Assembly (NCBI GenBank): GCA_021324355.1
Contig: JAJPJD010000051.1
Span: 1 to 64,000, forward strand
Origin: Actinomycetota bacterium
Lineage (GTDB): Bacteria > Actinomycetota > Acidimicrobiia > Acidimicrobiales > RAAP-2
Direction: 5' to 3'
DNA length: 64,000 nucleotides
Positions 9,782 to 16,933 of this stretch are shown piece by piece (position 1 is the first letter of the stretch; each line of letters opens with the position of its first letter). Under the pieces are notes generated by a model, which saw only the letters and a program-made list of their open reading frames with translations, ran no database searches and had not been told where the DNA came from. The position numbers and the translations under genes are program-made.

Positions 9782-12256
9782 ATGTCCATGGCCACAGTCC
9801 TGTTCGGCGGTCACCGGGGGGACGGTCCGAGGCCCGACCGACGCCCGGAGTCCCCGGCTCTGGCTGGGTCGGCCACTGGCGGCCCATCCAGGCGGCTGTG
9901 GGTTCTCTGCACCGCCCTTCTCGGGGTCTTGGGCGTGGTCGGGTCGGTCCTCGGTGGGAGCCTGTGGACCAGCTACCAGGACACCCAGAACCTGCGTTCG
10001 TTCACCAGGACCGCCTCGGGGTTCGCCGCGTCTGTGGCCGCGACCATCCGGCGCGACCTCGACTTCCAGGCGGCGGTCCAGGCGTTGGTGGCGACGACGC
10101 CCGGCCTCACCAACCACGCGCTCGCCCCATGGTTGGCGGCGCTCGACCCCGAGGCTCGGTATCCGGGCACGGTTGGCTTCGGCTACGTCGTCCCGGTGGC
10201 TGCCGCCGACCTCTCCGCCTTCCGGGCCACCATGAGTGCCGACCCTCTGGTGGGTTACCCGTCAGTCCCCTACGCGGTGTTCCCGCCGGGGGAGCGAAGC
10301 CAGTACTGCTTGGCCCGCTTCGGCTTCGTCACCTCTGCGGAGGTCATCCCGCCAGGGATCGACCTGTGCGCTCCCGAGCCGCTCCTCATCGCGGGCCAGC
10401 TCCGCCAGGTCGCCGATAGCGGCCATCGAGCGGTGCTCGTCTATGGCAAGGCGTTCAACCCTGCAGCCGCCAAATCGCTGGGGCTGACGTTGTCGTACCT
10501 CCAGCGGGTGGTCCGGGGGCTGTTCGCGATCGTCACCCCGGTCTACGCCGGGGACGTGGCGCCGCCCAACGCGGCTGCCCGCCACCGTCTGTTCACCGGG
10601 TGGCTGGTCGGGACTTTCACTGCTCCCAAGATGCTCGAGGCAACACGCCGCGCGCTGCCCTCGACCTCCTTGGAACTGCGGCTCGGGCCGAACACGGTCA
10701 TCGACACGGTCGGGTCGATGACCGGGGGGCAGCGCATGGCGGTGACCCGAGAGGTCCTGTCCGACCCCAGCGTCTTCTTGATCGTCACCGCGCCGGCCAC
10801 ATCGGGGGCAGTCGAGCAGGGCGTCGTGCTCGGAGCGCTCGGGGTCGTGGTCGTCCTGCTGCTGTGCGGGTTCCTCCTCCACCTGGTGCAGGCCCGTGAT
10901 CGAGCCCTGCGCCTGGTCGACCAGCGCACCGGGGAGCTGCGCCACCAGGCGCTCCACGACGCGCTCACCGGGCTGCCCAACCGTGACCTGCTCTTCGACC
11001 GGGCCGAGCAGCTTCTGGTCCGCTCCCACCGCTACCTGCTCGGGGTGGGGGCGCTGTACATCGACCTCGACAACTTCAAGGACGTGAACGACAGCTACGG
11101 CCACCAGCTCGGCGACCGGCTCATCTGTGCGGTGGCTGCTCGGCTGGTCTCGGTCCTGCGAGCCAGCGACACGGTCGGCCGGCTTGGTGGAGACGAGTTT
11201 CTCGTCCTGGTGGAGGGGGACAGTTTTGAGACCGGGCCCGAGCGAGTGGCCCAGCGGATCCTCCACGCGCTGGCCGAGCCCTTCGAGTTGCGGGACCACC
11301 GGACGGTCCGCTTCAGCGTCCAAGCGAGCATCGGGGTGGCAACCGGGGTGCGCGCCAGTGCCGAAGAGCTCGTCAGGGACGCCGATGTCGCGCTCTATCA
11401 GGCCAAGGCCGCCGGCAGGAACTGCTACGTCGTCTTCCGGCCCGAGATGCAGGCCTCCGTCCAGCATCGCCTCGAGCTTCAGATGGATCTTCGGCTGGCG
11501 GTCGAGCGGGGTCAGCTGTACGTCGTCTACCAGCCGATCTTCGATCTGGGTTCCCTCAGGCCCAAAGGTGTCGAGGCGCTGGTCCGCTGGCGACACCCGC
11601 AGCGAGGAGTGCTGGCTCCGGACGATTTCATCCCCCTCGCCGAGGAGTCGGGGCTCATCGTCGGCCTCGGTGAGTTCGTCCTGTCCTGCGCGTGCGAGCA
11701 GGGCGCGAGGTGGCGGGAGCAAGGAATGGCCATCGACATGTGGGTGAACATCTCGGTCACCGAGCTCGAGGCTCGGGGTTTCGTGGACCGGGTCGCGGCC
11801 GCCCTCAGCCGAGGCGGCCTCGAACCTCGGCACCTCACCCTCGAGATCACCGAGTCCACACTGATGCACGACTCCTCGCGCAACCTCGACATCCTGACCA
11901 GGCTGAAGGAGCTCGGCGTTCGGATCGCGATCGACGACTTCGGGACCGGGTACTCCTCGCTCGCATACCTCCGCCAGTTCCCGATCGATGCCTTGAAGAT
12001 CGACCGGTCGTTCATCGCCCGAGCGACGCAGACCGCCGAGTCCGGAGCCCTGGTCCACACCCTTATCCAGCTGGGGGCTGCGCTCGGGATCGAGACCCTC
12101 GCCGAGGGCATCGAGGAGCAGTCCCAGCTCGACCGGCTCCAGTTCGAGCGCTGTGACAGCGGGCAAGGGTTCCTCTTCGCTCGGCCGCTGGAGGCGGCGG
12201 AGCTGGAGGCGTTCCTCGCCCGTCGGCCGCCCACGACGAGCACCTCCGCCCGCTGA
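9782..12256 (+). CDS. CHASE-like sensor, GGDEF and EAL domain protein (cyclic-di-GMP turnover)
   Basis: N-terminal TM plus extracellular sensor region, LGGDEFLVLV, EALVRWRHP, IDDFGTGYSSLAYLRQFPIDALKID. Confidence 0.92.
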   Translation: MSMATVLFGGHRGDGPRPDRRPESPALAGSATGGPSRRLWVLCTALLGVLGVVGSVLGGSLWTSYQDTQNLRSFTRTASGFAASVAATIRRDLDFQAAVQALVATTPGLTNHALAPWLAALDPEARYPGTVGFGYVVPVAAADLSAFRATMSADPLVGYPSVPYAVFPPGERSQYCLARFGFVTSAEVIPPGIDLCAPEPLLIAGQLRQVADSGHRAVLVYGKAFNPAAAKSLGLTLSYLQRVVRGLFAIVTPVYAGDVAPPNAAARHRLFTGWLVGTFTAPKMLEATRRALPSTSLELRLGPNTVIDTVGSMTGGQRMAVTREVLSDPSVFLIVTAPATSGAVEQGVVLGALGVVVVLLLCGFLLHLVQARDRALRLVDQRTGELRHQALHDALTGLPNRDLLFDRAEQLLVRSHRYLLGVGALYIDLDNFKDVNDSYGHQLGDRLICAVAARLVSVLRASDTVGRLGGDEFLVLVEGDSFETGPERVAQRILHALAEPFELRDHRTVRFSVQASIGVATGVRASAEELVRDADVALYQAKAAGRNCYVVFRPEMQASVQHRLELQMDLRLAVERGQLYVVYQPIFDLGSLRPKGVEALVRWRHPQRGVLAPDDFIPLAEESGLIVGLGEFVLSCACEQGARWREQGMAIDMWVNISVTELEARGFVDRVAAALSRGGLEPRHLTLEITESTLMHDSSRNLDILTRLKELGVRIAIDDFGTGYSSLAYLRQFPIDALKIDRSFIARATQTAESGALVHTLIQLGAALGIETLAEGIEEQSQLDRLQFERCDSGQGFLFARPLEAAELEAFLARRPPTTSTSAR

Positions 12257-12436
12257 GCCACCGGGGGGCATCGGGCGCGCCAGGGTCGGCGGGAGCGCCA
12301 GGGTGACCCCGGTAGGGTGGGGGGCGGAGCCGCCGGGACCGGCGGCTCCCGACGGGTCGATAGCGAGCTCGACGCACCGCTTCGCCCGGCGTCGGGGGAG
12401 GGTGGAGCCGACCGATCGACGAGGGGAGCGAGCGAG

Positions 12437-13858
12437 TTGACGACCGCGGGAGCCCAGTACGACATCGTGGTCATCGGCGGGGGCCCGGGCGGGTACGCCA
12501 CCGCCCTCTATGCCGCCGCCGCCGGCCTCTCGGTCGCCATCGTCGAGCGCGACAAGGTCGGGGGAACGTGCCTGCACCGTGGTTGCGTTCCGGCCAAGGA
12601 GTTCTTGGAGACGGCTTCGGTCCACCGGACGGTCCGTCGCTCCTCGGAGTTCGGCATCAGGGTGGGCGAGCCCACGGTCGACTTCACGGTCAGCCAGGCA
12701 CGCAAGAACGCGGTGGTCGACCGATTGTTCCGGGGCCTGTCGGGACTCCTGGCCGGGCGCAAGGTAACCGTGCTCCGGGGGGCCGGGACGCTGTTCCCCC
12801 AGCATCGGGTTCGGGTGAGCGAGGGTCCGGACGCCGGCACCGAGATCGTCGGCCGGGCGGTGGTCCTTGCCGCCGGCTCGGTCCCGCGAACGCTCCCCGG
12901 GCTCCCAGTAGACGGCCGCACCGTGGTGACCTCAGACGAGTTCTTGGACCTGGACCGGATCCCCGAGTCGGTCGCCGTGGTTGGCGGAGGGGCGATCGGG
13001 TGCGAGTTCGCGTCGCTCCTGTCGGACTTGGGGGCTCGAGTCAGCGTGGTGGAGGCGTTGCCAGCAATCTTGAATGGCTGCGATAGCGAGGTGGCGGCGG
13101 TCGTTCATCGGTCCTTCCGCCGCCGGGGCATCGAGATCCACGTCGGCACCGAGGTGAAGGGGTTCGTCCCACGCCCGGGCGGCACTGGTGGGGTCCTCCA
13201 CCTGAGCGAGGGAGGAGAAATCGATGCCGACCTGGTGGTGATCTCGGTCGGCCGCCGGCCCCGCAGTGAGGGCCTGCTGGCCGAGGGAACGTCGGTGGTG
13301 ATTGACGAGCGGGGCTTCGTGGTAACCGACCGTTACCAGCGGACCCACGAGCCGGGGGTCTGGGCGGTTGGCGACCTGGTGGCGGGTACGCCCCAGCTCG
13401 CCCACGTGGGGTTCGCTGAGGCCATCGTGGCAGTGCGCTGCATGCTCGGCGAGCAGGCGGTGCCGGTGGACTACGACCGGGTGCCCTGGGCCATCTATTG
13501 CCACCCCGAGGTGGCCTTTGCTGGCCTCACCGAGGAGCAGGCGAAGGCCCGGGGGTTCGACGTCGTGGTCAAGAAGGACCCATTCGGTGGCAACTCGCGC
13601 GCCCAGATCCTTGGGGACACTGAGGGGTTGGTCAAGGTGGTCGCCGAACGGGCAGCCGACGGCCTCAGTGGGCGGATCCTCGGCGTCCACATGGTCGGCC
13701 CATGGGTCACCGAGCAGCTTGGTGCCGGCTACCTCGCCGTCAATTGGGAAGCGACCGCGAACGAGGTCGCTCAGTTCATCCAGCCGCACCCATCGCTGTC
13801 GGAGACGTTCGGAGAAACCGTGCTGGCACTGACTGGAAGGGGATTGCATCTTGGCTGA
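12437..13858 (+). CDS. lpdA: Dihydrolipoyl dehydrogenase (E3)
   Basis: VVIGGGPGGYATALYAAAAG, GGTCLHRGCVPAKEFLE (redox-active Cys pair), VGGGAIGCEFASLLSDLG, HPSLSETFGE; TTG start after gaggggag. Confidence 0.93.
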   Translation: MTTAGAQYDIVVIGGGPGGYATALYAAAAGLSVAIVERDKVGGTCLHRGCVPAKEFLETASVHRTVRRSSEFGIRVGEPTVDFTVSQARKNAVVDRLFRGLSGLLAGRKVTVLRGAGTLFPQHRVRVSEGPDAGTEIVGRAVVLAAGSVPRTLPGLPVDGRTVVTSDEFLDLDRIPESVAVVGGGAIGCEFASLLSDLGARVSVVEALPAILNGCDSEVAAVVHRSFRRRGIEIHVGTEVKGFVPRPGGTGGVLHLSEGGEIDADLVVISVGRRPRSEGLLAEGTSVVIDERGFVVTDRYQRTHEPGVWAVGDLVAGTPQLAHVGFAEAIVAVRCMLGEQAVPVDYDRVPWAIYCHPEVAFAGLTEEQAKARGFDVVVKKDPFGGNSRAQILGDTEGLVKVVAERAADGLSGRILGVHMVGPWVTEQLGAGYLAVNWEATANEVAQFIQPHPSLSETFGETVLALTGRGLHLG

Positions 13859-15287
13859 CGTCACGATGCCGCAACTCGGCGAGACAGTGACCGAGGGCAC
13901 CATCACCCGCTGGATGAAGGCGGTGGGGGATCACGTGGAGCGCGACGAGCCGCTGTTCGAGGTGTCGACGGACAAGGTGGACACCGAGGTCCCCTCGCCG
14001 GCCACCGGCATTCTGACCGAGATCGTGGTGCCCGAAGGCGAGACGGTCGAGGTCGGCGCACGCTTGGCGGTGATCGGCGACGGCCAGTCGGCGCCGGCAC
14101 CGGCGCCGGCGGACGATCGGTCGAGCGACCACGTACCTGGCCCGCCGCCTCCGGCTGCGCCGCCTCCGGCACCATCGCCTCCGGCACCATCGCCTCCGGC
14201 CGCGCCGCCTCCGGCACCGCCGGCATTCGCCGCCGGCCCTTCGGCGGGCCCCGAAGTGCCTGGCCGCGATGCCGAGCCTCCCCTGCTGTCGCCGATGGTG
14301 CGGCGCCTCCTGGCCGAACACGGGATCAGCCCGGCAGAGATCCAGGGAACTGGTTTGGGTGGCCGCATCACCAGGGAGGACGTCCTCGCGTACATCGACG
14401 CGCGGCACGGCGCGGCTCCTGCGTCCCCCGAGCCGGTCCAACCGGCTCCGGCATCGGTGCGCCCAGCGCCAGGTGCCGTGGCGGCGGCGCCTCCGCAGCC
14501 CGAGCCGACAGCCGAGCCGCAGGTCGAGGCACGGTCCCTGCCTGCGAGGGCGGCCGCTCCGGTCGTCCCCACCGCGGCCGACCGCGTGGTCCCGTTCTCG
14601 AACGTTCGGCGCCGGACGGCCGAGCACATGGTTCGGTCGAAGGCGACATCGCCCCATGCGTTCATCGCCGCCGAGACGGATTTCGAGAACGTCGAACGAG
14701 TCCGCCGTGCCCACGGCGAGCGCTTCGCAGCCGAAGAGGGATTCTCCCTCACCTACCTACCGTTCGTGGCCCGAGCGGCGGTGGAGGCGCTGCGGGAGTT
14801 CCCGCACCTGAACGCCTCGGTGGCCGATGAGTCCCTGGTCGTCCATAGCGAAATCAACCTGGGCATCGCAGTCGACCTCGACTACGAGGGGCTGATCGTG
14901 CCGGTCATCCACCGCGCCGAGGAGGTCACCCTGCGCGGGATCGCACGCCGAGTTCGCGACCTGGCTCAGCGCGCTCGCACCCGCCAGCTGAGCGCCGACG
15001 ACATTGCCGGCGGGACCTTCTCGATCACCAACGACGGACCTTTCGGGAGCTATTTCACCGTGCCGATCATCAACCAGCCCCAGGTCGCGATCCTGGCAAC
15101 CGACGGCATCAAGCGCCGACCGGTCGTGGTCACCGCCGAGGACGGGAGCGAGTCGATCGCCATTCACTCGGTCGGGTTGCTCGGCATGTCCTGGGACCAC
15201 CGGGCGGTGGACGGCGCGTACGTCTCCTCATACCTGAGGAGGGTGGGAGAGATCCTCGCCTCCCGGGATTGGGCGGCCGAGCTCTGA
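13851..15287 (+). CDS. 2-oxo acid dehydrogenase E2, dihydrolipoamide acyltransferase
   Basis: Single lipoyl domain (FEVSTDKVDTEV), Pro/Ala linker, E3/E1-binding segment (MVRRLLAEHGISPAEIQGTGLGGRITREDV), C-terminal catalytic SWDHRAVDGA. Overlaps lpdA end by 8 nt. Confidence 0.93.
   Translation: MADVTMPQLGETVTEGTITRWMKAVGDHVERDEPLFEVSTDKVDTEVPSPATGILTEIVVPEGETVEVGARLAVIGDGQSAPAPAPADDRSSDHVPGPPPPAAPPPAPSPPAPSPPAAPPPAPPAFAAGPSAGPEVPGRDAEPPLLSPMVRRLLAEHGISPAEIQGTGLGGRITREDVLAYIDARHGAAPASPEPVQPAPASVRPAPGAVAAAPPQPEPTAEPQVEARSLPARAAAPVVPTAADRVVPFSNVRRRTAEHMVRSKATSPHAFIAAETDFENVERVRRAHGERFAAEEGFSLTYLPFVARAAVEALREFPHLNASVADESLVVHSEINLGIAVDLDYEGLIVPVIHRAEEVTLRGIARRVRDLAQRARTRQLSADDIAGGTFSITNDGPFGSYFTVPIINQPQVAILATDGIKRRPVVVTAEDGSESIAIHSVGLLGMSWDHRAVDGAYVSSYLRRVGEILASRDWAAEL
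14146..14220 (+). repeat. Five 15-bp tandem units in the E2 inter-domain linker
   Basis: Five consecutive 15-mers beginning cgcctccggc (tgcgc/accat/accat/cgcgc/accgc), encoding PPPAAPPPAPSPPAPSPPAAPPPAP-like linker. Confidence 0.85.
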
Positions 15288-15292
15288 GCCCG

Positions 15293-16933
15293 GTGCTGAG
15301 GGTCCGCCGCCTCGGGATCGTCCCCTATCACGAGGCGGACGCGCTCCAGCGAGCCCTGGCCGAGCGGTCCGATGACGACTACCTGCTCGTGCTCGAGCAC
15401 CCCCCGGTCTTTACGTTGGGGGTGCGGGCTGACCCCCAGCATGTCCTGTGCGACCCCACAGCCCTCGGGGTGCCGCTCGTGCGGACCGACCGTGGTGGCG
15501 ACGTCACGTTCCACGGCCCAGGGCAGCTCGTCGTCTACCCGGTCCTGACCCTGTCTGACCATCCGTCGGCCGGGAGGATCCATGTGGGGCGGCTCGAGCA
15601 GGTGGTGATCGACGCCCTCACCGAGCTCGGCGTGGCGGGGGCAGGCCGGCTCGCCGGGTTCCCGGGGATCTGGCTCGACCCGGAGGGCCTCAGGCCGGCC
15701 AAGGTGGCCGCGATTGGGGTCCGGGCCCGCCGGCGGCGCGATGGCCGGCGGCGAAGCCTGCACGGGGTCGCGATCAACGTTGACTGCGACCTGTCGATGT
15801 TCGAGCAGATCGTGCCGTGTGGGATCCGCGATCTGCCGGTCACCTCCCTTGCTCGAGCCGGAGTGGACGTATCGTTCGACCAAGTGGCCGACGCAGTGGT
15901 GGCCCGGGCGGTCGCCGAGTGGGGGGACGGGGAGATCGAGGAGCAGGCCGTGACCCCTCGTCGCCCAGCGTCCTCCGCTCCGCTCGCCCTCGGTCGCCGA
16001 GAGCCACCCGGCGCCGTCCGGCTGCGCCAGGCCGGCGTGGATCCGGGGGCGGGCCTTGCCCTCTCGGCCCGCAAGCCTCCGTGGTTGCGGGTCCAGGTCC
16101 GAATGGGAGAAGAGTTCCGAAGCACCTCTCGGACCCTCGGCTCCCTCTCGCTGGTGACCGTGTGCGAGGAAGCTGGGTGTCCGAACATCTTCGAGTGCTG
16201 GGCCGAGGGAACCGCGACCTTCATGGTGAACGGCTCCCGCTGCACCCGGGCCTGCGGGTTCTGCAAGGTTGACACCGGGCGTCCCTTGCCCCTCGACCCC
16301 GGCGAGCCCGAGCGGGTGGCCGAGGCGGTGGAGCGGCTCGGCCTTGCTCACGCGGTGGTGACCTGCGTCGCCCGCGACGACCTGCCGGACGGCGGTGCCG
16401 GCGCGATTGCCCGGACGGTCGACGCGATCCGGCGGCGTCGACCCGGCACTCGAGTGGAGGTCTTGGTGTCGGACTGTCGAGGCGACCAGGAGGCGCTGGC
16501 GCAGATCCTCGAGTCACGGCCCGACGTCTTCAATCACAACATCGAGACGGTGGCCCGGCTGCAGCGGGCGGTCCGGCCGTCGGCCGGGTACGCCCGGAGC
16601 CTGACCGTGCTGGCCCGGGCAGCTGACGCCGGGCTGGTGGTCAAGTCAGGTCTTATGGTCGGGCTTGGCGAACGGGAGGAGGAGGTGGTGGCCACGCTGG
16701 CCGACCTCGCCGGGGTCGGGGTCCGCATCGCCACGGTGGGCCAGTACCTCCGGCCGAGCCGAGCCCACCTCCCGGTGGCCCGGTGGTGGACGCCCGAGGA
16801 GTTCGAGCGCTTGCGCCGGGCCGGGCTGGACCTGGGGCTGGTCCATGTGGAGGCGTCACCGCTGACCCGCTCCTCGTACCACGCCCGGGCTGCGGCCGAG
16901 GCGACCGCCGCCCCGACCCGAAGGTCAGGCTGA
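15293..16933 (+). CDS. LipB-LipA fusion: lipoyl(octanoyl) transferase joined to lipoyl synthase
   Basis: LipB: LEHPPVFTLG, RGGDVTFHGPGQLVVYP, KVAAIGVR, HGVAINVDCDLSMFEQIVPCGI. LipA: RKPPWLRVQVRMGEEF, TVCEEAGCPNIFECW, CTRACGFC, HNIETV, KSGLMVGLGE. Single uninterrupted frame; possible internal GTG at 15950 with AGGAG. Confidence 0.88.
   Translation: MLRVRRLGIVPYHEADALQRALAERSDDDYLLVLEHPPVFTLGVRADPQHVLCDPTALGVPLVRTDRGGDVTFHGPGQLVVYPVLTLSDHPSAGRIHVGRLEQVVIDALTELGVAGAGRLAGFPGIWLDPEGLRPAKVAAIGVRARRRRDGRRRSLHGVAINVDCDLSMFEQIVPCGIRDLPVTSLARAGVDVSFDQVADAVVARAVAEWGDGEIEEQAVTPRRPASSAPLALGRREPPGAVRLRQAGVDPGAGLALSARKPPWLRVQVRMGEEFRSTSRTLGSLSLVTVCEEAGCPNIFECWAEGTATFMVNGSRCTRACGFCKVDTGRPLPLDPGEPERVAEAVERLGLAHAVVTCVARDDLPDGGAGAIARTVDAIRRRRPGTRVEVLVSDCRGDQEALAQILESRPDVFNHNIETVARLQRAVRPSAGYARSLTVLARAADAGLVVKSGLMVGLGEREEEVVATLADLAGVGVRIATVGQYLRPSRAHLPVARWWTPEEFERLRRAGLDLGLVHVEASPLTRSSYHARAAAEATAAPTRRSG

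Follow-up and report, generated by a model that had tools for sequence, protein, structure and literature searches.

The two enzymes that complete lipoate assembly in consecutive reactions, the octanoyl-ACP:protein N-octanoyltransferase LipB and the lipoyl synthase LipA, are encoded as a single polypeptide in the actinobacterial genome analyzed here and in nearly all of the Acidimicrobiia genomes with a matching locus, and the fusion is real and ancient. We consider it highly probable that the fused frame specifies one bifunctional lipoyl-assembly enzyme of single evolutionary origin, whose covalent link fixes the dosage of the two halves and favors local recapture of the intermediate. Attachment of an octanoyl group and subsequent insertion of sulfur are successive steps in the assembly of the lipoic acid cofactor. 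In the mechanism that we propose, the LipB half would load its cysteine with the octanoyl group of octanoyl-ACP and transfer this group to the lipoyl-domain lysine of the 2-oxoacid dehydrogenase E2, whose gene lies just upstream, and of GcvH, after which the LipA half would introduce two sulfur atoms into the chain. The link would impose a one-to-one LipB:LipA ratio and hold LipB beside the N-terminal belt where LipA docks its carrier protein, such that the freshly octanoylated domain would be recaptured locally by the adjoining LipA.

The fused frame occupies positions 15293-16933 on the forward strand of the window, that is, of the whole 64,000-nucleotide stretch of DNA that was analyzed, and runs from a GTG to a TGA (16931-16933) through 546 codons with no internal stop; all window features given below lie on the same strand. 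The LipB domain (15293-15937, residues 1-215) was delimited by profiles, Foldseek, and invariant columns. The LplA/LipB catalytic family PF21948 matches residues 12-204, and the N-terminal half passes the cut-offs of the LipB equivalogs NF010925 (178.2 against 155 bits) and TIGR00214 (137.8 against 83.55 bits). Its motifs are RGG at residues 67-69, HGPGQ at 74-78, and the catalytic dyad K137/C176. An inter-domain linker with a clade-specific LipA lead-in follows (15938-16066, about residues 211-258), containing a junction motif, RLRxAGV, at about residues 243-249. The LipA domain (16067-16930, residues 259-546) passes the equivalog TIGR00510 over residues 259-536 (340.3 against 310.25 bits) and carries the auxiliary cluster cysteines C291/C296/C302 (Cx4Cx5C), the radical-SAM cluster cysteines C317/C321/C324 (CxxxCxxC), and an RSS motif at 526-528. 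The earlier note had read LipB and a complete LipA in a single open reading frame from the motifs RGGDVTFHGPGQ, KVAAIG, VPCGI, TVCEEAGCPNIFECW, and CTRACGFC; all of these are present in one frame, and the absence of stops and the equivalog scores of both halves bear out the reading. Among 49 fused proteins, K137, C176, R67, G69, H74, G77, and Q78 are invariant, and the catalytic and [4Fe-4S] cluster residues as a whole are invariant or nearly so, a degree of conservation that leads one to expect both reactions; it is on this basis that we infer both enzymatic activities. In one genome of the same genus (G004, locus L005:1420-3126), the position of C291 is taken by glycine (TVGEEAGCPN), through either a sequencing error or a real loss.

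The fused frame forms a block with two genes of the 2-oxoacid dehydrogenase system. The dihydrolipoyl dehydrogenase E3 (12317-13858; TIGR01350, 449 against 409 bits) overlaps at its end, 13858, with the start of E2 at about 13851, and E2 (13851-15287), which has one lipoyl domain with a DKV lysine, an E3-binding domain, and a catalytic domain, stops at 15285-15287, just ahead of the GTG at 15293. The E3-E2-LipBA block with short overlap or spacing that the earlier note described thus agrees with the coordinates, and it recurs across the class: among the 80 Acidimicrobiia loci with enough flanking sequence, 75 have E2 as the immediate upstream neighbor in the same orientation, and E3 in turn precedes E2 in 34 of 36 Acidimicrobiia loci. 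Since E2 also precedes lipB in several Actinomycetota outside the class (L126 and L128, and at more distance L080 and L090), the neighborhood is older than the fusion. A scan of the block for consensus promoters and terminators found none. Upstream of the E3 gene, at 9782-12256, a long open frame carries motifs of the GGDEF and EAL types, which are associated with cyclic-di-GMP turnover.

Within its own genome, no LipA over cut-off and no clear LipB occur outside the fused frame. Two lipoyl acceptors were found, E2 (13851 in the window) and GcvH (C6:6613), and the two remaining PF00364 matches are biotin domains with an MKM motif. With no other LipA or clear LipB available, the fusion should lipoylate both the adjacent E2 and GcvH, and E2 is likely its main substrate. 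The genome also encodes a divergent LplA/LipB-type protein (L131:642-1604, corresponding to G000:C20:42541-43503) that matches PF21948 with 44 bits and carries RRSGGGAVLL. This protein (G000:C20:42904) has no NCBIfam match, and similar weak matches occur in most genomes of the genus; it is possibly a lipoate ligase-like paralogue, in which case the fusion may not be the sole route of lipoylation. A richer complement is seen in a single-contig genome of the same order (G053, 2.16 Mb), in which the LplA/B-type catalytic domains number five and the GcvH-like proteins four; the clusters at G053:C1:1089676-1092626 and 993926-994711 may belong to lipoate-dependent sulfur oxidation of the sHdr/LbpA type.

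The earlier note had suggested looking for further single-frame LipB-LipA proteins, and these turned out to be the rule in the class. Matches were obtained in 37 of the 41 genomes closest to that of the window (its own included) and in 114 of 119 genomes sampled evenly across the class, and 112 of these 114 have one stop-free LipB-LipA frame; the named loci L032, L036, L053, L056, L061, and L100 identify the class as Acidimicrobiia. Sixteen genomes in which the halves had matched separately and six flagged for stops all proved to be fused when read. The two exceptions are a genome whose contig ends within the gene (G139) and one with a stand-alone LipB in another gene context (G128, locus L123), where LipA was not found. 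Two other candidates for an unfused state were rejected: an apparent split at L062 traces to LipB itself, whose frame changes beside unknown bases, with the junction unaffected, and a second, unfused lipB/lipA pair in G090 (contig C83, locus L125) lies on a 5-kb contig in a genome that also has the fusion, possibly owing to contamination or transfer. Six class genomes that are at least 90% complete gave no match to LipA or the fusion (G006, G008, G012, G135, G095, and G099), and five of them have GcvH over cut-off; gene loss, assembly gaps, or lipoate scavenging by LplA-like proteins could each account for this.

The Acidimicrobiia fusions are recovered as one clade from LipA (SH-aLRT 90), from LipB (80), and from the two concatenated (97); these are quick trees whose deeper forks are not firm, and the simplest reading of their agreement is a single fusion event at the base of the class. 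In a phylum-wide sample outside the Acidimicrobiia, the halves match separately or LipA matches alone, and in the Actinomycetota loci read there lipB and lipA are separate genes, mostly adjacent; in many of these loci, a set chosen by one search, the two genes share a frame across a short gap. The ancestor of the Acidimicrobiia would have had lipB and lipA side by side, as in other Actinomycetota, and the two would have been joined a single time, when lipB lost its stop. Three candidates outside the class were dismissed: in G185 and G260 (Actinomycetota family f61) the open frames are long but lipB and lipA are separate, and in G236 a match that extends in one frame as far back as residue 116 proved to be a LipA whose additional N-terminal stretch is unrelated and has no LipB motifs. 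Apparent LipB-LipA fusions with the same domain order were found in a gammaproteobacterial metagenome-assembled genome, or MAG (L085:5917-7506), and a deltaproteobacterial one (L092:5980-7509), both halves passing at least one family cut-off in each case and the second following immediately on E2 and E3 genes, an arrangement also seen in the Acidimicrobiia. They branch elsewhere than the Acidimicrobiia in the LipA and LipB trees, which points to an apparently independent origin for these fusions, each known from one MAG. The plasmid collection yielded only matches below 60% identity. A LipB-LipA from a genome named 'Acidobacteria bacterium' (L035, JAGXAY010000003.1) nests among the Acidimicrobiia, and the genome is probably misnamed or a mixed MAG.

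In a single genome, a frame of this kind could be an artefact of high G+C content or metagenome assembly, two neighboring genes sharing an open frame by accident. With a G+C content of 70%, chance alone would keep a gap of 46 codons in frame and free of stops in about 14% of cases, and the window genome alone is therefore weak evidence of fusion. However, the fusion is also present in closed genomes, which already make a sequencing error at the junction unlikely, with the single-contig genomes G026, G030, G042, G053, G061, and G066 among its carriers, and it is kept in members with 33-37% G+C, in which a stop-free linker would occur by chance in only 0.08-2% of cases; in the small-genome genus g55 (0.7-1.1 Mb, about 34% G+C), which is fused too, this chance is about 2% or less. 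Together with the 112 fused genomes of the class survey, the low-G+C members refute an accidental joining, to which we attach practically no credence. A subtler alternative is that the genes are fused on the DNA while a separate LipA is produced by internal initiation or by cleavage of the linker, leaving two proteins as the working enzymes. The earlier note had proposed such a start at GTG 15950, and its elements are indeed there in frame, with AGGAG (15939-15943) at workable spacing from the GTG (candidate site 15939-15952); moreover, four of the six genus members have a start with a Shine-Dalgarno (SD)-like sequence in the linker, against 9 of 114 others, a contrast drawn post hoc among relatives. 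The AGGAG falls in Glu-Glu codons, and the valine of GTG 15950 is part of a motif late in LipB that is retained in many relatives. Conservation of this start across the class is not supported: starts with SD-like sequences are no commoner in linkers (14 of 7,506 codons, 0.0019) than in domain bodies (85 of 55,024, 0.0015; p = 0.53), and of the 120 linkers 75 lack an ATG and 7 lack any start codon. In addition, ribosomes that start at LipB will produce the fusion for want of a stop, and both frame and freedom from stops have been maintained at 33-37% G+C. Minor internal initiation may occur in the window genus, but we judge it improbable that the working enzymes are generally two proteins, and retain the single bifunctional polypeptide as the preferred reading.

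What the covalent link contributes is a matter on which models and linker evolution both bear. AlphaFold models of the window protein (pLDDT 93.0, pTM 0.93) and of a low-G+C relative that is 40% identical to it and differs in linker length (pLDDT 89.3, pTM 0.91) are less confident mainly in the linker region, the lowest values being at residues 221-240. Freely placed domains should score much lower in pTM (a match to LipA alone reaches a TM of about 0.51 relative to the complete fused protein), and the pTM scores by themselves suggest a defined arrangement of LipB and LipA. In human LIAS, the H protein docks mainly on N-terminal residues 66-110 (PMC12246082), which by alignment of the Cx4Cx5C motif correspond to about residues 251-295 of the fusion, directly after the linker. 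LipB would therefore be attached next to the carrier-docking belt, a placement that lends plausibility to local recapture of the octanoylated domain and, with it, to the channelling of octanoylated protein that the earlier note had envisaged. A stronger version, with LipB and LipA packed against each other in an orientation that is fixed and conserved and the lipoyl domain passed between their active sites, strikes us as rather unlikely; if it holds, the fusion would expose a LipB-LipA complex that bacteria with separate genes also form without a covalent link. Across 120 fused loci, a few genomes being represented twice, the LipB and LipA alignments are separated by 21 to 112 residues. Each of the 53 distinct spacings preserves the frame, and no junction contains a stop; so wide a range argues against a geometry dictated by the linker. 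The same variability and fast evolution of the linker favor a further alternative, which competes only with the inferred benefit and not with the fusion itself: a lost lipB stop may have become fixed in the ancestor as a neutral relic, with the domains working independently and without channelling. Other Actinomycetota manage with separate genes, and the many same-frame, short-gap pairs among the split loci imply that loss of one stop would suffice. Neutrality sits less easily with the finding that none of the 112 class genomes shows clear re-splitting, with the apparent independent fusions in two other lineages, and with the high pTM of both models; we regard it as a serious possibility that falls just short of an even chance. 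The bifunctional fusion with a dosage and recapture advantage remains our preferred reading.

The component enzymes and their chemistry are well known. Apparently new, and new to us, are the class-wide LipB-LipA fusion, its probable single origin, and its predicted fixed arrangement; a literature search, with most subscription journals outside its reach, found no published description of such a fusion, and the two domains may already be annotated together, without remark, in public protein databases. That a natural fusion persists throughout a class, and seems to have evolved separately in two lineages of Proteobacteria, hints strongly, in the 'Rosetta stone' sense, that LipB and LipA work as a physical unit. 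As a single protein, the fusion also lends itself to structural and kinetic tests of how transfer proceeds from the octanoylation step to sulfur insertion, and it is a candidate molecular marker of the Acidimicrobiia.

Among known systems, the bifunctional lipoate--protein ligase/lipoyl synthase family NF053790 (LplA-LipA) likewise has a cofactor transferase N-terminal to LipA, but its N-terminal half is an LplA-type ligase, and the window protein falls outside the family (347.5 bits against a cut-off of 800), matching only profile positions 331-604, the LipA half. The lipoate-protein ligases Lpl(AB) and Lpl(BA) are also domain fusions in lipoate assembly and also occur in Actinomycetota, yet they join ligase catalytic and accessory domains rather than a transferase and a synthase, and the passages searched do not mention a LipB-LipA fusion (PMC10332631). 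The best solved relatives of the two halves come from Mycobacterium tuberculosis (LipA, 5exi; LipB, 1w66). The LipB half resembles M. tuberculosis LipB (PDB 1w66) in fold and catalytic residues, with 45% identity in the structure alignment and a Foldseek TMt of 0.83, and the LipA half likewise resembles M. tuberculosis LipA (5exk) with 49% structure-aligned identity and a TMt of about 0.92; in M. tuberculosis, however, the enzymes are encoded by two genes with a stop between them and have no covalent link, whereas in the Acidimicrobiia they are joined in one frame.
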